Below are positions 6,386-60,418 of a stretch of DNA of 64,000 bases, piece by piece (position 1 is the stretch's first letter; each line of letters begins with the position of its first letter). Where the stretch lies: contig OZ024869.1 of assembly GCA_964017185.1 (NCBI GenBank), positions 5,230,501 to 5,294,500 on the forward strand, written 5' to 3'. This stretch comes from Rugalucina vietnamica (lineage: Eukaryota > Mollusca > Bivalvia > Lucinida > Lucinidae). The notes beneath the pieces were generated by a model that was given only the letters and a program-made list of their open reading frames with translations, ran no database searches and was not told where the DNA came from. Both the position numbers and the translations under genes were made by a program.

Positions 6386-9300
6386 ATACTTAGTGCACTG
6401 TCCTGACAAACCATTTGTCCCTTTCAACCACCTTGACGTGACCAATCACTTGTTCTATTGTCTCGTCCTGACCAGAACCATGTCCCATTTCAACCATGCC
6501 TTCCTGATGTACTCCATGTCCCATTTCAACTATGCTGTCTCGACCTACCCCTTGTCACATTTCAACCTACCTTCCTTACCTACCCCTTGTCCCATTTCAA
6601 CCTACTGTCCTTACCTAACCCTTGTCCCATTTCAACCGTGCTGTCCTGATGTACCCCTGGTCCCATTTCAACTGGTTTGTCCTGGCAAATCACAAGTCAT
6701 GACTAATCACTTGTTCTGTTGTCTCTTCCTGACCAAAACCATGTCCCATTTCAACCATGCCTTCCTGATGTACTCCATGTCCCGTTTCAACGATGCTGTC
6801 TTGACCTATCCCTGGTTCCATCTCAACCGTGCTGGGGGTAGGTCAGGACAGCATGGTTGAAATGGGACAAGGTATAGGCCAGGACAGCACAGTTGAAATA
6901 GGACAAACCGTAGGTCAGGACAACATGGCTGAAATATGACAAAGGGTAGGTCAAGACAGCATACATGTAGTTTGAATGGGACAAGGGGTAGGTCAGGACA
7001 GCATAGTTGAAATGGGACAAGGGGTAAGTCAGGACACCACAATTGAAATAGGACAAAGGGTATGTCAGGACAACACAGTTGAAATAGGACAAAGGGTAGG
7101 TCAGGAAAGCATGGTTAAAATATGGGACAAGGAAAGGTCAGGGCAGCATAATTGAATGGGACCATGGACAGGTCAGGGCAGCATGGTTCAAATAGGACAA
7201 GGAGTTCGTCAGGACAGCACGGTTGAAATGGGACAACAGATTGGCCAGGACAGCATGGTTGAAAAAGGACAATGGGTAGGTCAAGACAGCAAGGTTGAAA
7301 TGGGACAAGGGGTAGGTCAGGACATTACGGATGAAATGTCAGGAGACAATGGTTGAAATGGAACCAGATACAGGTCAGGACAGCAGGGGTGTAATGGGAC
7401 CAGGGGTAGATCAAGACATCATGGTTGAAATGGGATACGCCAAGACAGACCATTAAAATGGGACAAAGGGTACCTCAGGACATCACAGTTGGTTGAAATG
7501 GGACAAGGGCCAGGTCAAGATAGCAAAGTTGAAATGGGGCAAGGGGTAGGTCAGGACAGCATGGTTGCAATAGGACAAGGGGAACGACAAAACAGCACAG
7601 TTGAAATAGGACAAGGGGTAGGTCAGGATTGTATGGTTGAAATGGGACAAGGGGTATGAGAGGACAGCAGAGTTGAAGTAGGACAAGGGCTAGGTCAGGA
7701 CAGCACGGTTGAAATGGGACAACAGATTTACCAGGACAGCATGGTTGAAATAGGACAAGGGGTAGGTCAGGACAGCACGGATGACATGGGACAAGGGGTA
7801 GGTCAAGACAGCATGGTTGAAATTTGAACAAGGGGAACAACATGACAACACAGTTGAAATAGGATAAGGGACAAGGGGATCAACATGACAACACAGTTGA
7901 AGTTAGATAAGGGGTACATCAGGACAACACAGTTGATATAGGACAAGGGGTAGGTAAAGACAACATGGTTTAAATAGGACAAGGGGTAGGTCAGGACAGC
8001 ACGGATGAAATTGGACAAGGGGTTGGTCAAGACAGCATGGTTAAAATGGGTTAAGGGGTATGTCAGAACAGCGTGGTTGAAATGGAACCAGTTATAGGTC
8101 AAATCAGCACAGTTGCAATGGGACAACGGCTTGGTAAGGACAGCACAGTTGAAATGGTACAAGGACTACCGGTAGGTCAGGACAGCATGGTTGAAATGGT
8201 ACAACAGATTGGTCAGGACAGCATGGTTGAAATAGGACAAGGGGTAGGTCAGGACAGCACTGTTGAAATGGAACAAGAACTAGGTCAGGACAACATGGTT
8301 GAAATAGGACAAGGGGTAGGTCAGGACAGCACACTGTTGAAATGGGTCAAGGACTAGGTCAGGACAGCATGGTTGAAATGGTACAACAGACTGGCCAGGA
8401 CAGCATGGTTGAAATAGGACAAGGGGTAGGTCAGGACAGCACAGTTGAAATGGGACAAAGGGTACCTTAAGACAGATCTGTTGAAATGGGACAAGGGGTA
8501 GGTCAAGACAGCATGGTTGTAACTGGTCAACGGGAACAACATTACAGCATAATTGAAATAGGACAAGGGGTACATCAGGACGATATAGGACAACAGATTG
8601 GCCAGGACAGCATGGTTAAAATAGGACAAGGGGGAGGTCAAGACAGCACGGTTGAAATGGGACAAGGGGTAGGTCAGGTCAGCATGGTTGAAATTGGACA
8701 AGGGGTAGGTCAGGACATCACGGATGAGATGGGACAAGGGGTAGGTCATGTCAGCATGGTTGAAATTGGACAATTTATAGGTCAGGACATCATAGGTAAG
8801 ATGGGACAAGAGGGAGGTCAAGACAGCAGGTTGAAATGGGACAAGGGGTAGGTCAGGACATCACGGATGAGATGGGTCTAGGGGTAGGTCAGGTCAGCAT
8901 GGTTGAAATTAGACAAGGGGTAGGTCAGGACAGCATGGTTGAAATAGGACATGGAGTACATCTGGAAGGCACAGTGACAGTTGAAATTGGACATGGTTTT
9001 GGTCAGGACAAGACAACAGAAGTGGTTAGTCATGACAGGCTGGGATATGCCAGGACAGACCATTGAAATGGAATCAGGGGTACGTCAGGACAGCACGGTT
9101 AAAATGGGACAAGGGATAAGTCAGGACAGCACAGTTGAAATGGGACAAGGGGAAGGTCAGGAGAGCACAGTTGAAATAGGACAAACGGTAGGTCAGGACA
9201 ACACGGTTGAAATATGACAAAGGGTAGGTCAAGACAGCATAGTTGAAATGGGACAAGGGGTAGGTCAGGACAGCACAGTTGAAATGGGACAAGGGGTAGG

Positions 9301-11450
9301 TCAGGACAGGACAGTTGAAATAGGACAAACCGTAGGTCAGGACAACATGGTTGAAATATGACAAAGGGTAGGTCAAGACAGCATAGTTTAAATGGGACAA
9401 GGGGTAGGTCAGGAAAGCATTGTTGAAATGGGACAAGGGGTAAGTCAGGACAGCATGGTTGAAATGGGACATTGGGAACAACAGTTGAAATGGGACAAGG
9501 GGTACATCAGGACAACACAGATGATATAGAACAAGGGGTAGGTCAAGACAGCCCCTTGTAACTGTGCTGTCTTGACCTATCCCTGGTTCCATTTCCACCA
9601 TGCTGTCCTGACCTACCTTGTCCAATTTTGGTCATGCTGTCTTGACCTACCCCTTGTCCCACTTCAACCGTGCTGTCCTGAGGTACCCCTTGTCCCAATT
9701 CAACCATGCTGCCCTGACCTGTCCATGGTCCCATTCAACAATGCTGCCCTGACCTTTCCCCATTCCTATTTCAACTGGTGTCTTCTGACATACCCCTAGT
9801 CCAATTTCAACTGGTCTGTCCTGACGTAGCCCTTGTCCCATTGGAACTGGGTTGTCCTTTCCTACCTCTTGTCCCTTTTCAATCATGCTGGTCTGACCTA
9901 CCCCTTGTCCTATTTCAAACATGCTGTCCTGACCTACCCCAACTGTGCTGTCTTGACCAAGCCCTTGTCCCATTGCAACTGTGCAGTCTTGACCTATCCC
10001 TGGTTCTATTTTAAACATGCTGTCCTTATTTACCCCTTGTCCCATTACAACCATGCTGTCCTGACCTACCCCTTGTCCCATTTCATCAGTGCTGTCCTGA
10101 GCTACCCCTTGTCCCATTTCAACCGTGCTGTCTTGACCTCCATCTTGTCCGAGATCAACTGTGCTGTCCTGATGTACCCCTTGTCCTATTTCAACTGTGC
10201 TGTCATGTTGTTCCCCTTGTCCTATAACAACCATTAGTACTGACCTACCCCTTGTCCCATTTCCTCGGTGCTGTCCTGACCTACTCCTTGTCCCATTTCA
10301 ACCATGCTGTTTTTTGGGTACCCTTTGTCCCATTTCAACCATGCTGTCTGGACCTACTTCTTGTCCTATTTAACCATGCTGTCCTGGCCAATCTGTTGTC
10401 CAATTTCAACCTTGTCCCATTTCAACTGGTGTGTTCTGACACACACCTCGTCCTATTTCAACCATGCTGTCCTGACCTACACCTTGTCCTATTTCAACCA
10501 TGCTGTCCTGACCTACATTTAGTCCGATTGCAACCGTGATGTCTTGACCTATCCCTGGTTCCATCTCAACCATGCTGTCCTGGCCTACCCCTTGTATGAT
10601 TTCATCCATGCTGTCTTGACCTACCCCTTGTCCCATTTCAACCAAGCTGTCTTGACCTACCCCTTGCTCTATATCAACCAAGCTGTCTTGACCTACCGCC
10701 TGTTCTATATCAACCATGCTGTCTTGACCTACCCCTTGTCCCATTTCATCCAGGCTGTCTTGACCTACCCATTGTCCCATTTCATCCAGGCTGTCTTGAC
10801 CTACCCCTTGTCCCATTTCATCCAGGCTGTCTTGACCTACCCCTTTGTCCCATTTCAACCAAGCTGTCTTGACCTACCCCTTGTTCTATATCAACTGTGT
10901 TGTCCTTGTCCCATTTCAACTGTACTGTCATGTTGTTCCCCTTGTCCCATTTCAACCATGCTGTCTTGACCTACCCTTTGTCCCATTTCATCTGTGCTGT
11001 CCTGACCTACTCCTTGTCCTATTTCAGCCATGCTGTCCTGGCCAATCTGTTGTCCAATTTCAACCTTGTCCCATTTCAACTGGTGTGTTCTGACATATAC
11101 CTTGTCCTATTTCAACCATGCTGTCCTGACCTACTCCTTGTCCCATTTCAACTGTGCTGTCATGACCTACCCCTAGTCCGATTGCAACCATGATGTCTTG
11201 ACCTATCCCTGGTTCCATCTCAACCGTGCTGTCTTGACCTACCCCTTGTTCTATATCAAATGTGTTGTCCTGATGTACCCCTTGTCCCATTTCAACTGTA
11301 TTGACATGTTGTTCCCAATGTCCCATTTCAACCATGCTGTCTTAACCTACCCCTTGTCCCATTTCATCCGTGCTGTCCTGACCTACTCCTTGTCCCATTT
11401 CAACCATGCTGTCTTGAGATACCCTTTGTCCCATTTCAACCCATCAGCCC
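6386..11450. repeat. 36-bp minisatellite, about 140 units, three blocks of alternating orientation (family I)
   Basis: The unit is approximately GGTCAGGACAGCATGG followed by TTGAAATGGGACAAGGGGTA. Orientation is reversed in 6386-6835, forward in 6836-9550 and reversed again in 9551-11450. Because 36 is divisible by 3, many units stay open on both strands, giving 12-residue repeat frames (about DSMVEMGQGVGQ, or CPDLPLVPFQPC on the other strand). These have no start, splice or codon evidence of being genes. A longer higher-order block (with a TAATCACTTGTTCT variant) recurs near 6440, 6700 and, inverted, 8950-9060. Confidence 0.95.
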
Positions 11451-12232: not shown

Positions 12233-12574
12233 CGTATTTGTTCTAATTAGCGCACACTGCGCTTAGCTTTTCAAAATAACTTAAAGTTAAGGCAACATCA
12301 TATTTTTCTAATTAGCGCACACTATGAAGGAAAACAACACATCAAAATGCTGAAACAACCATGTCAAATCTATCAATTGGTGATGTCATTTAAGTGCAAA
12401 GTATTTTTAATCATTTACGGTTAAGTTATAATGCGTCTAATGCGGTGCTAATGTGTAGAATAGGTGTAAAATACCAATAAACTACAATATATTCAAGTGC
12501 TTATGCACATGTTTTTCTGAAACAACCAGGGTGTGCGCTTATTGGAACATGTGCGCTAATTAGAACAAATAGGG
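12233..12574. mobile_element. TA-flanked MITE (family M), Tc1/mariner-superfamily-like
   Basis: Left end CGTATTTGTTCTAATTAGCG; the right end reverse complement reads CCCTATTTGTTCTAATTAGC. TA dinucleotides flank both ends (12231-12232, 12575-12576). An internal direct copy of CTAATTAGCGCACACT occurs near 12315. No transposase frame was found. Confidence 0.75.
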
Positions 12575-13737: not shown

Positions 13738-13919
13738 ACCCAACCTGTACAGTCACAGAAGCAGGCTAGTGGCTTGAAATTTTGGATTTAAGGAGAAGAG
13801 GGATTGTACTATCCGTGTAGCGGAAACAAAGGCGCCGATCAGCTTCGCAGTTACTGCGAAGCTGATCTGCGCCTTTGTTTTTGCATATGCAGGTTGTTGG
13901 TTTTCTCATGAGGCAGCTC
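13738..13919 (+). mobile_element. Family-A MITE, copy 7 (left end lost)
   Basis: It begins in the middle module (CCTGTACAGTCACAGAAGC). Intact hairpin GATCAGCTTCGCAGT / ACTGCGAAGCTGATC and right terminus TCATGAGGCAGCTC. Confidence 0.88.
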
Positions 13920-14224
13920 AAATAATTATATGACGCAAACCAATTTTCCCACTTTTAAAGCCTAGGCAACCAAATGACCCTGGCATCTTTTGGACAAACG
14001 ACAGGTCTCCTCGTAAACTATGCCAGGTTTCAAGTCATAAGACTTCAGGTTCTGGTGAAGAAACCTTTTGAGCCATTGTTAGGCATGAAGGTAGGCATCT
14101 CGAGGTCATATATGTGTCGAATTCTAAGTCATATGCCCTTTAGTTCCGAAAAGAAATGTTGAAAGCTTTTTTTTATCAAAATCAAACTTATTAAGTTGGC
14201 TTGGCAGTCATGTACACGTCATGA

Positions 14225-26304: not shown

Positions 26305-26384
26305 TAGCAAGTCTAGCAACAGTTGAAGCATTCACTGGGGCACCAGGGTCATCAATTTCAATCACCAGTTTACTCCCTTTCACC
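26305..26384 (-). CDS. Internal exon 5 of PTPRN/IA-2-like gene, strand 2 and helix 2 of SEA-like domain
   Basis: An 80-nt minus-strand exon lies between acceptor TATATTTTCAG and donor CTTGCTA|GTAAGTA. It enters in phase 2 and leaves in phase 1 (single A). The peptide VKGSKLVIEIDDPGAP is followed by VNASTVARLA. This mirrors the IA-2 family pattern of a V-x-G-x-x-L-x-F/I-x-I strand, a turn with a conserved N-hydroxy-T/S, and a helix beginning near it; NAS is also a potential N-glycosylation site. The exon lies 17 kb from exon 4. Two decayed copies of its 5' half lie just upstream in the intron. The next exon (end of the domain and transmembrane segment) was not found below this point. Confidence 0.85.
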
Positions 26385-26437
26385 CTGAAAATATAAAATC
26401 AAGTTGGCATTGACTAGTAAATTGTCATTGGGATTCT

Positions 26438-26483
26438 ACTATCAAGATTGTCAATCTCAATGGACAGACTGCTCCCTTTAACC
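26438..26483 (-). pseudogene. Decayed partial copy 1 of exon 5
   Basis: On the minus strand it reads VKGSSLSIEID-like, matching the first half of exon 5. The same TTTATATTTTCA tract precedes it, but the acceptor AG is now AT. It is about 99 bp upstream of the true exon, so a tandem duplication of roughly 100 bp is likely. Confidence 0.7.
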
Positions 26484-26554
26484 ATGAAAATATAAACCCA
26501 TGGTCATTTACTTGAAGATCTGTCATTGTCATCATGACCAGCCTCACTACTGGT

Positions 26555-26600
26555 GAAGAAATCTCAAATACCAGCTTACTGCCTCTTGATGACACTGCAA
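26555..26600 (-). pseudogene. Decayed partial copy 2 of exon 5
   Basis: On the minus strand it reads RGSKLVFEI, again the first strand of exon 5, preceded by a TTTAATTTTGCAG-like tract. It is more diverged than copy 1 and spaced about 115 bp beyond it. It probably belongs to the same ancient tandem duplication that runs into the 39-bp minisatellite. Confidence 0.6.
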
Positions 26601-27042
26601 AATTAAAGAGTTTATTTCATATAATTTAATTACATATGGCTTAACATGTAAATGGTTGCCATCAGAATGTTCCGGCATCACAAAAAACATTATGGCATTA
26701 AAAATTATAGGAACTTCATGCAATGTCATTGGTATTCATTCATACAGGAATTCCAGCAAGTGTAAATAGCAATGGTACTCATACAGGAATTCCAATAAGT
26801 AAAATTATGTCATTGGGACTCACACAGGAATTCTAACATGTGTGAATATCATTGGTGCTTATACAGGAATTCCAACAAGTATAAATGTCATTGGTGCTCA
26901 TGCAGGAAATCCAACAAGTATAAATGTCATTGGTGCTCATGCAGGAAATCCAACAAGTATAAATGTCATTGGTGCTCATACAGGAATTCCAACCAGTATA
27001 AATGTCATTGGTGCTCATACAGGAATTCCAATAAGAGTAGAT

Positions 27043-27270
27043 GAGCCGCAACGCAAGAAAATCGGTCTTCGGGGTTTCCGACCAGGTCTGACGCAAACTG
27101 ACAGTCACAGAAGCTGGCTAGAGGCTTGAAATTTGGGATTTAAGAAGAAGAGTGTTAGTACTATCCGTGTAGCAAAAACAAAGGCGCTGATCAGCTTTGC
27201 AGTTACTGCAAAGCTGATTTGAGCCTTTGTTTTGCATAGACGAAAATCCTGTTTTCTCATGATGCGGCTC
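27043..27270 (+). mobile_element. Family-A MITE, copy 13, nested in the minisatellite
   Basis: GAGCCGCAACGCAAG start and CATGATGCGGCTC end. Hairpin arms GATCAGCTTTGCAGT / ACTGCAAAGCTGATT, a CTTTGC/GCAAAG variant. Minisatellite units resume directly on both sides, so insertion post-dates the array. Confidence 0.92.
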
Positions 27271-27746
27271 AAATGTCACTGGAACTCTTTAAAGAATTCC
27301 AACTAGTGTAAATGTCATTGGTACTCATACAGGTATTCCAACAAGTGTTAATGTCATTGGTACTCATACAGGAATTCCAACTAGTGTAAATGCCATTGGT
27401 ACTCATACAGGATTTCCAACAAGTGTTAATGTCATTGATACTCATAGAGGAATTCCAACAAGTGTTAATGTCATTGGCATTCATACAGGAGTTCCAACAA
27501 GTGTTAACGTCATTGGTACTCGTACAGGAATTCCAACTACTGTAAATGTCATTGGTGCTCATACAGGAGTTCCAACAAGTGTAAATGTCATTGGTACTCA
27601 TTCAGGAACTCAAACAAGTGTTAATGCCATTGTTACTCATACAGGAATTCCAACAAGTGTAAATGACATTGGAACTCATAAAAGGAATTCCATGTAAATG
27701 GCACTGGTAGGAATTCCAACAAGTGTAAATGCCATTGGTTAAGGAC

Positions 27747-27878
27747 TGAAATTCAGATTTTAGCTTTCACTGGATGATGAAAAACATTAGGCTGTTTTAA
27801 TGTCTGTGAGGGCTTCTCGGAGACATTAAAACAACTAATGTTTTTCATCATCCAGTGAAAGCTAAAATCTGAATTTCA
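27747..27878. mobile_element. Near-perfect foldback, ~56-bp arms
   Basis: TGAAATTCAGATTTTAGC... is matched by ...GCTAAAATCTGAATTTCA across a short spacer (GTGAGGGCTTCTCGG). It interrupts the minisatellite together with a CpG-rich block to about 28205 that contains CACGTGAC and TGACGTCGC. Confidence 0.9.
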
Positions 27879-28205
27879 ATACTTATATTTACATTTTATA
27901 TTATCAATCAAGTATCAGATTTTTAATTGCACATATCATCGCTCATTTTCATGTTATTTGACTTTAAATCCGACTTAACGTACTTTTGAAACAGCCAAAA
28001 CGCCAAAGTTTCGCGCTTAACGTCATGGCGATGCGCGACCGACGTCACGCCAACAAGAGTAAACAAACAACGTCACTGGACAGGGTTTGACGTCGCCCCG
28101 CCCATAGGCGTGGCCTCTAGATCACGTGACTTATGTTTTTCATTGGGAAATGAAGAACATCAAGAAAGATACTTTCATCTAGGGCGATTGCAATAAAAAT
28201 GTAAA
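27879..28205. other. CpG-rich block beside the foldback
   Basis: It is denser in CpG than its surroundings, with GACGTCACGCC, CACGTGAC and CGCGCTTAACGTC. It lacks a convincing open frame. It could be part of the same inserted element as the foldback or a regulatory segment. Confidence 0.4.
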
Positions 28206-28400
28206 TATTAGGAATTATAACGAGTGTAAATGTTACTGGTGCTCCGAATTCCAACAAATGTAAATGTCATAGGTACTCATACAGGAATCCCAATGTGTAA
28301 ATGTCATTGATACTCATACAGGAATCCAACAAGTGTAAATGGCATTGGTACTCGTATAGGAATTTTAACAAGTGTAAATGACCTCACACAGGTAATAACA

Positions 28401-34776: not shown

Positions 34777-35010
34777 GAGCCGCCTCGTGGGAAAACCAAC
34801 AATGTGGTTTCTGAACAGGTCCGACACAAACCGACCTGTACAAGAACAGAAAAGAGCTAGAAGCTTGAAATTTTGAATTTAAGTAGAAGAGGAATTGTAG
34901 TATCCGAGTAGCGAAAACAAAGGCGCTGATCAGCTTCGCGGTTACCGCGAAGCTGATCTGCGCCTTTGTTTTCGCATATGCAAATTGTTGGTTTTCCCAT
35001 GAGGCGGCTC
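34777..35010 (+). mobile_element. Family-A MITE, copy 17 (near-consensus)
   Basis: GAGCCGCCTCGTGGG to CCCATGAGGCGGCTC. Perfect hairpin with GCTTCGCGGT / ACCGCGAAGC arms. The best full-length example in the window, 234 bp. Confidence 0.96.
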
Positions 35011-35191
35011 ATTTAATAGGTAGACTCTTGCAACATCATAAAATAAATGTTACCTATTTCTTTGAGGAGATTTGCTCCATTACTATTTAAATAAAAAGTT
35101 TTCCTTTAGGTTCATTACACTTATTATTCCTTATTTATTTCCTTTTGATGAAGCTTTCTTTATAGATTTTTCAATAAATGTAATTATATTT

Positions 35192-40418: not shown

Positions 40419-40592
40419 AATTATGTCCAGGCACTGAAGAAAATCAAGACTGAAAGTGAAGCAATTACAATCTTTTGTTCAACTATCAAAGGAAATAGGC
40501 GAGTAGGTTAACATATAACAGAGCAATAGTCCTACATTTGTGCACACCAAAAACAAAGCTTATGATTTAATTCAACAAGGAAAGATATAAAT

Positions 40593-40797
40593 GAGCCGCC
40601 TCATGGGAAAACCAACAATCTGCATATGCGAAAACAAAGGCGCAGATCAGCTTCGCGGTAACCGCGAAGCTGATCAGCGCCTTTGTTTTCGCTACACGGA
40701 TAGTACATTTCCTCTACTTTCTAAATCCAAAATTTCAGGCCGGTTTGTGTCGGACCTGTTCGGAAACCACATTGTTGGTTTTCCCACAAGGTCGCTC
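40593..40797 (-). mobile_element. Family-A MITE, copy 22
   Basis: GAGCCGCCTCATGGG start. Perfect hairpin with CTTCGCGGT / ACCGCGAAG. About 25 nt of the middle are deleted after AAAATTTCAG. End CACAAGGTCGCTC. Confidence 0.93.
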
Positions 40798-41104: not shown

Positions 41105-43140
41105 GCCATTATCATGACAACAAAGACAATAGTAGTCCTGGATTAGATGAAACGAACCCAGCCTAACTCGACAACATCCCAGTCCCAACCTTAACTGACA
41201 ACAAAGACAATAGTAGTCCTGGATTAGATGAGACGTACCCAGCCTCTCGACAACATCCCAGTCCCAACCTTAACTGACAACAAAGACAAAAGTAGTCCTG
41301 GATTAGATGAGACGAACCCAGCCTAACTCGACAACATCCCAGTCCCAACCTTAACTGACAACAAAGACAATAGTAGTCCTGGATTAGATGAGACGAACCC
41401 AGCCTAACTCGACAACATCCCAGTCCCAACCTTAACTGACAACAAAGACAATAGTAGTCCTGGATTAGATGAGATGAACCCAGCCTAACTCGACAACATC
41501 CCAGTCCCAACCTTAACTGACAACAAAGACAATAGTAGTCCTGGATTAGATGAGACGAACCCAGCCTAACTCGACAACATCCCAGTCCCAACCTTAACTG
41601 ACAACAAAGACAATAGTAGTCCTGGATTAGATGAGATGAACCCAGCCTAACTCGACAACATCCCAGTCCCAACCTTAACTGACAACAAAGACAATAGTAG
41701 TCCTGGATTAGATGAGACGTACCCAGCCTAACTCGACAACATCCCAGTCCCAACCTTAACTGACAACAAAGACAATAGTAGTCCTGGATTAGATGAGACG
41801 AACCCAGCCTAACTCGACAACATCCCAGTCCCAACCTTAACTGACAACAAAGACAATAGTAGTCCTGGATTAGATGAGACGAACCCAGCCTAACTTGACA
41901 ACATCCCAGTCCCAACAAAGACAATAGTAGTCCTGGATTAGATGAGATGAACCCAGCCTAACTTGACAACATCCCAGTCCCAACCTTAACTGACAACAAA
42001 GACAATAGTAGTCCTGGATTTTATGAGATGAACCCAGCCTAACTTGACAACATCCCAGTCCCAACCTTAACTGACAACAAAGACAATAGCAGTCCTGGAT
42101 TAGATGAGATGAACCCAGCCTAACTCGACAACATCCCAGTCGAAACCTTAACTGACAACAAAGACAATAGTAGTCCTGGATTAGATGAGATGAACCCAGC
42201 CTAACTCGACAACATCCCAGTCCCAACCTTAACTGACAACAAAGACAATAGTAGTCCTGGATTAGATGAAACGAACCCAGCCTAACTCCACAACATCCCA
42301 GTCCCAACCTTAACTGACAACAAAGACAATAGTAGTCCTGGATTAGATGAGACGAACCCAGCCTAACTCGACAACATCCCAGTCCCAACCTTAACTGACA
42401 ACAAAGACAATAGTAGTCCTGGATTAGATGAGATGAACCCAGCCTAACTCGACAACATCCCAGTCCCAACCTTAACTGACAACAAAGACAATAGTAGTCC
42501 TGGATTAGATGAGACGAACCCAGCCTAACTTGACAACATCCCAGTCCCAACCTTAACAGACAACAAGGACAATAGTAGTTCTGGATTAGAAGAGGCGAAC
42601 CCAGCCTAACTTGACAACATCCCAGTCCCAACCTTAACTGACAACAAAGACAATAGTAGTCCTGGATTAGATGAGACGAACCCAGCCTAACTCGACAACA
42701 TCCCAGTCCCAACCTTAACTGACAACAAAGACAATAGTAGTCCTGGATTAGATGAGACAAACCCAGCCTAACTCGACAACATCCCAGTCCCAACCTTAAC
42801 TGACAACAAAGACAATAGTAGTCCTGGATTAGATGAGACGAACCCAGCCTAACTTGACAACATCCCAGTCCCAACCTTAACTGACAACAAAGACAATAGT
42901 AGTCCTGGATTAGATGAGACGAACCCAGACTAACTTGACAACATCCCAGTCCCAACCTTAACTGACAACAAAGACAATAGTAGTCCTGGATTAGATGAGA
43001 CGAACCCAGCCTAACTTGACAACATCCCAGTCCCAACCTTAACTGACAACAAAGACAATAGTAGTCCTGGATTAGATGAGACGAACCCAGCCTAACTCGA
43101 CAACATCCCAGTCCCAACCTTAACTGACAACAACGACAAT
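41105..43140. repeat. 81-bp satellite, ~25 units (family J)
   Basis: The unit contains AATAGTAGTCCTGGATTAG, GAACCCAGCCTAACTCGAC and CATCCCAGTCCCAACC, then TTAACTGACAACAAAGAC. One unit near 41921 lacks about 15 nt. The 81-nt period keeps a 27-residue repeat frame open for up to 426 codons on the minus strand (LRLGLGCCRVRLGSSHLIQD), with no splice or promoter support. The array meets exon 4's donor within a few bases, and its unit resembles the exon's 3' border. Confidence 0.96.
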
Positions 43141-43143
43141 TAC

Positions 43144-43227
43144 CTGGCATTAGCTAGTAGTCCTGGTTCTGCCGAGACTATCCTCTCCAGGGCAGCTATC
43201 AGTCTGGCACGAGCCTTGGTTGTCAAC
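43144..43227 (-). CDS. Internal exon 4 of PTPRN/IA-2-like gene, helix 1 of SEA-like domain
   Basis: An 84-nt minus-strand exon lies between acceptor TTCTATCTTCAG and donor GCCAG|GTAATT. It enters and leaves in phase 2 (CC+G gives Pro; final AG joins G of exon 5 to give Arg). The peptide is a clean amphipathic helix (LTTKARARLIAALERI) followed by VSAEPGLLANA. In PTPRN/PTPRN2 the corresponding segment after the first strand is a Pro-Leu turn, a long helix with a Leu-rich face, then a strand. This positional match is the main reason for the family call. The donor is followed within a few bases by a 2-kb array of an 81-bp repeat that resembles this exon's 3' end. Confidence 0.87.
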
Positions 43228-43356
43228 CTGAAGATAGAAGAACAAAGTCAACTCCATTAAATTCATAAGCTATGAGAAAGACAAGAACAAAATTCAAACA
43301 GTCTAAGAAAAGTAAAATTCTGCATTTAATTGTTAAAGTAATGATAGAAGATATAT

Positions 43357-43380
43357 GAGCCGCCTCGTGGGAAAACCAAC
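43357..43380 (+). mobile_element. Family-A MITE, copy 23 (left terminus only)
   Basis: GAGCCGCCTCGTGGG followed by AAAACCAAC, then family B begins. The rest of this MITE resumes at 44882. Confidence 0.92.
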
Positions 43381-44881
43381 CAGAGGACCAATGGTCCTGT
43401 AAACGCTCACCTGAGATCTGCTACATATTCCAATAAACATGTTTGAATATTATGGTATTCAACTCCAGTGCAGGGGCAGATGAAGCACTTGGGCCATTTT
43501 CTTTTTTCAGAATCTTCAATATTCTGTCCATTTGGCAATTTCCTGCTGGCTTTTCCCTTCAAATGACATTTTAACAGTTTTCCCAATTCAAATGCATAGG
43601 CAACCCATGTTGACCTTGCCATAAACTTGGTCAAGGTCATCACAGGGTCATGATTTATATATACATTGTAGTACTTTAGCCATCGATGCTTCAATCTAAG
43701 TTTCCTTGAAATCAGTTGATTGGTTTCAGAGAAGAAGATTTTTGATGGGTTTTTACCATATATGGGCATGGCGGCCATCTTGGTCATGTGACCTAGATTA
43801 TTTATATACACATTGATTCCCCCATTCTATAGATGCTTCACATAAAATTTGGCTTTGATTGGCCAAGCGGTTTCAGAGGAGAAGACATTTGAATATTATG
43901 GAAATATACATGTATATTACCCCGGGGTGGGGGCACATGAGCTCCTGGGGTCCAATTCTTTTCAGAATCATTAATATTCAGTCCTATTTCCCATTTCCTG
44001 CAAGACTTTCACTTAAAATTACATTTTAAAAGTTTTCCCCATTCAAATGCCTTGGCGATCTATGTTGACCTTGCCGTAAAATAGGTCAAGGTCATCATAG
44101 GGTCATGATTTATACATACATTGTAGTGCTTGAGCCATCGATGCTTCATGCCAAGTTTCTTTGAAATCGGTCAACCAGTTCTGGAGAAGAAGATTTTTGA
44201 AGGGTTTTTACCATATATGGGCATGGTGGCCATCTTGGTCATGTGACCTGGATTTTTATATACATATTGGTTCCCCCTTCCTATTGATGCTTCACATAAA
44301 ATTTGGCCAAGTGGTTTCAGAGGAGAAGACGTTTGAATATTATGGAGATATACATGTATATTGCCCCGGGGTGGGGGAACATAAGCCCCTGGGGTCCAAT
44401 TTTTTTCAGAATCATTAATATTCAGTCCTAATGCCCATTTCCTGCAAGACTTTCACTTTAAATGACATTTTAAAAGTTTTCCCCATTCAAATGCATTGGC
44501 GACCTATGTTGACCTTGCCGTAAAATAGGTCAAGGTCATCACAGGGTCATGATTTATATATACATTGTAGTGCTTCAGCCATTAATGCTTCAAGCTAAAT
44601 TTCATTGAAATCGGTCCACCGGTTCTGGAGAAGAAGATTTTTGAAGGGTTTTTACCATATATGGGCATGGCAGCCATCTTGGTCATGTGACCTGAATTTC
44701 TTATACATACATTGGTTCCCCCTTCCTATTGATGCTTCTTATAAAATTTGGCTTTGATTGGCCAAGCGGTTTCAGAGGAGAAGATCTTTGAAATTGTGGA
44801 CGGACGGACGCCGGACGGACGGACGCCGGATCATGGCCATCCTATAAGCTCACCTTGTGAGCCTAACGGCTCAGGTGAGCT
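43380..44881 (+). mobile_element. Family-B element B8, inserted into a family-A MITE
   Basis: 5' CCAGAGGACCAATGGTCC, about three units, a GGACGGACGCCGGAC microsatellite at about 44798-44830, and hairpin GAGCCTAACGGCTCAGGTGAGCTAA. Removing it restores an uninterrupted MITE with no duplicated bases. Confidence 0.93.
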
Positions 44882-57266: not shown

Positions 57267-57389
57267 CTTTCTGCTGTTCGTCCCCTTTAGTTTCACTATC
57301 CTTTTGCTCTTGGTTGTTCCTACTGGCATCAAACTGTCCCTCATTCTGCACCATGTCTTCAGCCCGTGCAGCATCCAGAGGGTAGTCAT
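57267..57389 (-). CDS. Internal exon 2 of PTPRN/IA-2-like gene
   Basis: A 123-nt minus-strand segment lies between acceptor TGATACTCACAG and donor GAAAG|GTAATAC. It is phase 1 at both ends. The peptide starts DDYPLDAARAEDMVQ and ends in a Gln/Glu/Lys/Asp-rich, probably disordered linker ending DEQQK. Its entering AT completes an Asp codon with the G left by exon 1, and its final G completes Asp with AC of exon 3. The composition (acidic, no hydrophobic core) fits a flexible luminal linker before the folded membrane-proximal domain; that role is inferred from position. A family-A MITE ends 19 nt beyond the donor, and a 19-nt copy of this donor junction occurs inside that MITE. Confidence 0.8.
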
Positions 57390-60274: not shown

Positions 60275-60418
60275 CTTGATATGGAATTTCTTCCCCTATC
60301 CCCAGGCGACCTGGATTGTCCATCTCCTCTTTGTTTCGTAGACGTAGTAACATATTTTCAATGTACGGCCGTAGAATGTCCATTTCTTCATCTGTAAGAT
60401 TCTGGGGCTTGATCTCAT
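60275..60418 (-). CDS. Internal exon 1 of PTPRN/IA-2-like gene (host gene)
   Basis: Read on the minus strand, a 144-nt open segment lies between acceptor TTTCTTTACAG and donor CAAG|GTACAG. It starts and ends in phase 1 (enters with AT, leaves with G). The peptide contains NLTDEEMDILRPY and ENMLLRLRNKEEM, followed by a Gly/Pro-rich stretch. It is acidic with an amphipathic helix and lies N-terminal to the SEA-like module encoded by later exons. The outgoing G joins AT of the next exon to give Asp, so phases agree. A family-A MITE ends 16 nt upstream of the exon, and the donor overlaps the target site of a pogo-like MITE. On its own this peptide is not diagnostic; the gene assignment rests on the downstream exons. 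Upstream exons (signal peptide, N-terminal luminal part) are expected beyond the window. Confidence 0.8.

Follow-up and report, generated by a model that had tools for sequence, protein, structure and literature searches.

Internal tandem repeats at exon-intron boundaries have been described in human duplicated genes; that report (PMC2812944) gives an average of four copies of a 30-bp unit, attributes the repeats to expansion in place and states that they can form new introns. Intron gain by tandem genomic duplication, in one case across the boundary, is described in two further reports (PMC4974935, PMC2891723). Here we analyse an array in the lucinid bivalve Rugalucina vietnamica that, measured against these accounts, we rate as a member of the known exon-border tandem repeats, set apart by its copy number and by the missing donor. 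As in the human cases, the repeat is of minisatellite size and its unit includes exon-border sequence; it differs from them in comprising about 25 units of 81 bp, in being intronic and in having copies without the donor. With the intron-gain cases it would share a tandem duplication that either spans the boundary between exon and intron or turns duplicated exon sequence into intron. Unlike them, it shows no evidence of having created an additional intron or exon, its copies lack one of the splice sites, and it has many more copies.

The array lies within a stretch of 64,000 nucleotides (C1:5230501-5294500, hereafter the window) of a 1.09-Gb genome assembled in 47 contigs (Table 1). Repeat detection gave a period of 81, 25.2 copies and 95% matches over 41115-43140. 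Unit starts are 81 nt apart in 22 of the 24 spacings; one of the others is 79 nt and one is 149 nt, the latter corresponding to a full unit followed by a unit minus 13 nt. The 22 full-length units diverge pairwise by 2.9% on average, and the edge copy next to the exon carries a C on the plus strand where the inner copies have A (G in one of them). A BLAST search of the genome with the unit returned 12 matches, all within the array, and two 34-letter unit patterns, allowed up to three mismatches, matched 25 and 23 times genome-wide, again exclusively inside the array, with no genomic match for the reversed control patterns; repeat counts from these searches are lower bounds. An 81-bp unit in 25.2 local copies lies within the minisatellite range (local tandem arrays of units of about 10-100 bp), whereas satellite DNA is abundant, at many loci or in very long arrays, and we found a single locus of about 2 kb in 1.09 Gb. 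The repeat is thus a local, single-locus minisatellite, and the label "satellite" used in a preliminary description of this DNA is not borne out. That description had named wide occurrence of the unit in the genome as evidence against its reading; our searches located the unit in this array alone, and they lend no support to an origin from a widespread repeat.

Table 1. Positions of the exon border, the array and comparable loci. Bare numbers are window positions; C numbers denote contigs.
Feature	Position	Strand	Description
15-nt block missing from the units	43140..43154	(-)	Last 11 exon nt (GCTAATGCCAG) plus donor GTAA
12-nt exon segment identical to the unit	43155..43166	(-)	CCAGGACTACTA on the gene strand, TAGTAGTCCTGG on the plus strand; codes PGLL
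Coding exon, 84 nt	43144..43227	(-)	1 nt at start and 2 nt left of a codon; LTTKARARLIAALERIVSAEPGLLANA; predicted first part of the Receptor_IA-2 domain
Remaining exon part	43167..43227	(-)	Agrees with the unit at 30/61 in-register positions; may be part of a whole-exon seed
81-bp minisatellite array, ~25 copies	41115..43139	(-)	Intron directly downstream of the 84-nt exon
Edge copy of the unit	43126..43139	(-)	Intron positions 5-18; TTGTCGTTGTTGTC on the gene strand, GACAACAACGACAA on the plus strand
Next coding exon (VKGSKLVIEIDDPGAPVNASTVARLA)	26305..26384	(-)	Joins the 84-nt exon in phase
Degenerate copies (two) of the next exon's acceptor and about its first 30 nt	26412..26640	(-)	Just upstream of exon 26384-26305
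Candidate upstream coding exon (DYPLDAARAEDMVQNEGQ...)	57267..57389	(-)	Out of phase with 43227; another exon needed between
Candidate upstream coding exon (EIKPQNLTDEEMDILRPYIENMLLRLRNKEE...)	60275..60418	(-)	In phase with candidate 57267..57389
L045 array	C7:21566600-21570200, sense positions ~1864-2770	minus	46-bp unit: 3' end of a phosphatase-domain exon plus donor; intronic
L051 array	C6:27967900-27971500, L051:1855-3509		58-bp unit with acceptor and first bases of a phosphatase-domain exon; upstream of the exon
L035 copies	C10:23966300-23969900, L035:705-2331		Upstream of the intact exon, at a period of ~170: two truncated copies including the acceptor, plus a fragment of a third
L078 copy	C10:4134010-4135131, L078:54-152		One degenerate partial kinase-exon copy near the intact exon; score 46.5, shuffle maximum 16.0

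On its minus strand the array stays open for runs of 427 and 264 codons; they are expected without selection from a 27-codon unit with one open frame, and a coding role for the array was rejected. Read-through from the exon into the intron in the exon's own frame meets an immediate stop (AGG TAA). Elsewhere in the window, a large 36-bp minisatellite of more than 4 kb with divergent units, its consensus listed in both orientations, occupies 6835-11440, and the lists of open reading frames contain a dispersed repeat family with frames like MSRLMGKPTICICENKGADQLRGNREADQRLCFRYTDSTIPLLLKSKIS at many places (for example 40591-40720, 34860-35012 and 13769-13954).

On the gene strand, exon 43227-43144 ends in CCAGGACTACTA-GCTAATGCCAG and its intron starts with GTAA followed by TTGTCGTTGTTGTC (TTGTC...), while in the unit CCAGGACTACTA is followed directly by TTGTCTTTGTTGTC (TTGTC...), without the 15 nt in between. 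The shared 12-mer sits in exact array register once these 15 nt are skipped, and neither half of the 15-nt block was found inside the array. On the minus strand, the first base of the array is the fifth of the intron; the preliminary description had the array abutting the exon. The match after removal of 15 nt with the donor, likewise claimed there, holds: with the array continuation predicted in phase, 12 of 12 letters agree at the border and at most 6 at 12,260 control positions (plus strand, every 5 nt, outside the array, continuation sought 0-30 nt ahead), although this control fixes the phase and not the freedom that arose because the border was spotted by reading a long window with many chances. 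If one mismatch is tolerated, the window contains 26 matches to the 12-mer, of which 25 belong to the array and one is the exon segment; shuffles lead one to expect 0.12 matches. A profile built from 19 unit pairs also placed the border first among the six window hits at E up to 100 (E 0.012, the next 4.2), with the 15 nt carried as an insertion; the array was masked up to 43125 in this search, and 14 nt of the border hit are the edge copy, making the result partly circular.

The 84-nt exon is predicted to belong to a PTPRN/IA-2 receptor-type phosphatase-like gene. It ranks second on the minus strand of the window in a simple exon scan based on splice matrices and amino-acid frequencies. The scan was widened with neighbouring DNA to about 144 kb, and nine candidates resembling parts of one gene were picked among the best 60. 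Exons 43227-43144, 26384-26305 and C1:5209487-5209417 form an in-phase chain; joined, with one junction residue entered as X, they match the Pfam family Receptor_IA-2 (PF11548) at 33.7 bits, above the cut-off of 29.7 (E 3.9e-8). A phmmer search with the same three exons returned the PTPRN chains 3n01, 3n4w and 2qt7 (E about 0.007) and PTPRN2 (4hti, E 0.067), followed in the PDB list by eight CheA chains at E 0.26-0.72. The alignment to PTPRN and PTPRN2 stays gapless where the 15-nt block contributes its 11 exon bases to the protein. The 84-nt exon and the next exon alone hit no Pfam family, their read-through version scored 13.5 bits, below another family, and Pfam and PDB searches with exons taken one at a time or joined differently failed to identify the gene. 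Searched against the genome, PF11548 missed the split domain of this gene; its sole hit was a sub-threshold match with two stops at C7:56544462-56544677, possibly a decayed second copy or a chance match. No paralogue of the 84-nt exon was found at E up to 10, at the DNA or protein level, with a tool that scores only candidates passing a loose first look.

Upstream, three candidate exons are mutually in phase and the last of them is out of phase with the 84-nt exon, so that either one or more exons between them are lacking or the candidates do not connect to it. For the candidate at 60275..60418 the scan had scored a longer version to 60213, which we ended at a nearer donor. With five upstream candidates, whose order and links are unproven, the 84-nt exon is probably not the fourth coding exon, as it had been numbered. 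Two of the upstream candidates, out of phase and joined by hand, may resemble the RESP18-like N-terminal region expected of such a gene, but gave no Pfam family. Downstream, where a gene of this type would be expected to encode a transmembrane helix and a tyrosine-phosphatase domain, a candidate exon with a hydrophobic stretch (C1:5174466-5174242) matched no Pfam family over its cut-off, and phosphatase-domain matches on the same strand (C1:5136625-5136834 and 5134200-5134376) may belong to such a gene.

Since the 15-nt block is aligned without gaps in the PTPRN and PTPRN2 homologues and is missing from the unit, protein homology indicates that the exon is older and that the units lost the block and donor by deletion. 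The reading we prefer, with a probability of roughly 0.8, is that this minisatellite arose where it now stands, within the intron, from the 3' border of an old PTPRN/IA-2-type exon. A segment of about 96 nt across this border would have been duplicated in tandem; it would have included, at a minimum, the 24-29 exon nt that precede the block, then the block itself with its donor, and the beginning of the intron. The copy that founded the array would then have dropped 15 nt, the last 11 exon bases and the donor GTAA. Slippage or unequal exchange would have multiplied this 81-nt form into about 25 copies, to be homogenised subsequently, while the terminal copy at the original position would have retained the working exon and donor. 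We infer the duplication step, the order of deletion and amplification, and neutrality. The seeding from the exon border proposed in the preliminary description is supported, and its direction, from exon to repeat with 15 nt lost, draws support from the resemblance of the exon to the IA-2 ectodomain.

How much of the exon served as the seed can be read in either of two ways, about 30 nt of it or the whole. In the latter case, which we place somewhat short of even odds, the seed would have been the whole exon, its 73 nt from the acceptor edge onward together with the block, plus the opening bases of the intron, and the array would be an expanded tandem exon duplication whose units are decayed exon copies. 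The weaker match into the exon (GAGAC) pointed out in the preliminary description is real, and is part of a longer similarity: without gaps and in register, exon and unit agree at 42 of 73 exon positions, or 30 of 61 outside the 12-mer. This phase is the best of all 81 (the next gives 23), and of 123,500 segments of the window only 17 had at least 30 identities outside the 12-mer, as did 2 of 20,000 codon shuffles of the exon. The first 14 nt of the exon contribute 10 of 14 identities (fraction 0.0003) and the 17 nt beside the 12-mer contribute 10 of 17, but the middle 30 nt carry no signal (10/30, fraction 0.19). Freely aligned to its downstream flank, the exon gives an alignment running from the acceptor edge with a score of 16.0, against a maximum of 13.5 for 60 control stretches; this flank, however, supplies 25 variants of the unit, and when 20 flanks of ten candidate exons were treated alike, 4 beat their controls, including those of two other exons that narrowly beat all 60 (17.0 versus 16.5 and 17.5 versus 16.0) for no apparent cause. 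A two-rate whole-exon model has a higher likelihood than a border-only model (lnL -42.3 versus -49.8), with more parameters, and the next exon also has two truncated duplicates. Against the whole exon as the seed, a free local alignment of the exon minus the 12-mer to the unit lacked significance, being equalled by 373 of 1500 shuffles with one gap setting and by 1368 with another, and the clear parallels in the same genome, L045 and L051, are border seeds. The 12-mer is perfect, while the 12 positions beside it already include 5 differences and all 61 exon positions outside it include 31; neither a border-only nor a whole-exon seed accounts for this step in a simple way. Outside the 12-mer, identities are in excess at second codon positions (15/20), for which we have no explanation that we trust; upstream past the acceptor (intron 43228-43400), similarity to the unit was not above that of shuffles. 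The comparison of exon and unit is further confused by an internal duplication within the 81-bp unit, equalled by 9 of 3000 shuffles.

The reverse direction, in which the array came first and its outermost copy turned coding after acquiring 15 nt that included a donor, is very improbable. Array edge copies tend to be the most diverged, the similarity peaks beside the array, and the 84-nt exon is a whole number of codons, all of which would suit such an origin, but the exon appears to code the start of a Receptor_IA-2 domain that aligns without gaps to PTPRN and PTPRN2 through the 15-nt block, and the genome search found the unit nowhere besides the array. We give equally little credence to a coincidental 12-mer beside an unrelated array. 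The border was found by eye across a long window, and near-equal gapped alignments exist elsewhere in it (14.5 versus 15.0, although none of 17,610 segments reaches 15.0); on the other side stand the fixed-phase control, exceeding six letters at none of its 12,260 positions, the start of the array at the fifth intron base and the parallels in the same genome. Slightly less improbable, though still unlikely, is that selection keeps the array to tune splicing of the exon, for example through acceptor-like motifs repeated beside the donor. Scored with splice-site matrices, the array holds 46 acceptor-like sites of 7.0-8.0, compared with 11.0 for the true acceptor, and its best donor-like sites score 5.3 (23 sites) and 6.1 (2 sites), compared with 7.9 for the true donor, which is in the top 2% of GT sites in the window. 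Pyrimidine-rich units, however, yield such sites for free, and tandem arrays span 31% of the window; the array is probably without function. Intron gain, which takes new splice sites from the duplicated segment, does not describe this locus: the donor block is absent from the units, and no donor-like site in them exceeds 6.1.

We compared the array with other exon borders in the same genome, using 60 exon loci: 40 with phosphatase-domain matches (flanks of about 1.7 kb), taken mostly from the top of the match list, several sharing a gene or cluster and two coming from this gene's own stretch, and 20 kinase loci (flanks of 450 bases). The phosphatase loci were tested for arrays, the kinase loci for arrays and single copies. 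With the exon taken as the matched segment extended by 25 nt, arrays reach into it at three of the 40 phosphatase loci (L045, L051 and L035), and at none of the 20 kinase loci was an array found at the border within the 450-base flanks. Two of the 60 sampled exons (L045 and L051) have many-copy arrays holding their own border, which weakens the earlier view that an origin of this kind would be unusual, and two of the 60 have one or a few truncated exon copies, single copies having been sought at the kinase loci only. In the gene studied here, the two degenerate copies upstream of the next exon score 30 and 18, where the highest values from 1000 shuffles each were 21 and 17. We also considered whether the 39-bp array at 26740-28380 is connected with that exon or its copies, and dropped the idea, 42-394 of 1000 shuffles being as good in five comparisons.

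One of the two clear parallels is L045, which is likewise intronic and whose unit combines the terminal (3') part of a conserved coding exon with the first part of the intron. It differs in its 46-bp unit and in having kept its donors, and it looks younger, the 15 units compared differing from the exon copy at 0-6 of 46 positions. The exact sequence GTAG/GTAAGT occurs at 17 sites, the true donor and 16 further intact donors, and the duplication junction can be placed on AAGTC, present in both exon and donor. The preliminary description had the donor deleted so that copies are not spliced; a view in which donor loss lets such copies persist is not supported, because the L045 array persists with intact donors, and we treat donor loss in the 81-bp units as incidental, or at most mildly favoured. 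The L051 array is also intronic and holds an exon border, but on the acceptor side (the 5' border) and with a 58-bp unit; it has about 28 copies according to TRF, and TTTCTAG/TG[CG]GGG is exact in 11 copies besides the exon.

These loci raise the possibility that exon borders in this genome repeatedly seed intronic minisatellites, on both the donor and the acceptor side, by way of direct repeats within the splice consensus, with some arrays keeping decoys and others having lost them. Short direct repeats between exon and intron, such as the AAGTC that the L045 exon shares with its donor sequence gtAAGTC, may start the duplication. We advance these two suggestions jointly and tentatively, and doubt them more than we believe them. 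Array coverage amounts to 7.6% in the 40 phosphatase loci and to 31% in the window, and at the phosphatase loci there is no sign of array enrichment at exon borders (about 3 of about 80 borders in arrays, versus 7.6% coverage). Birth anywhere, combined with selection that keeps one intact border at the array edge, therefore suffices.

At this locus the order of events, from an old coding exon to a repeat, can be read, which is hard where the seed is unique noncoding sequence. Because this genome also contains L045, an array that has kept its donors, comparing it with the donor-less array allows splicing amid many copies of an exon border to be tested. If exon borders do seed such arrays repeatedly, decoy-keeping arrays like L045 and decoy-losing arrays would form a natural series for the tolerance of splicing to repeated copies of its own signals.
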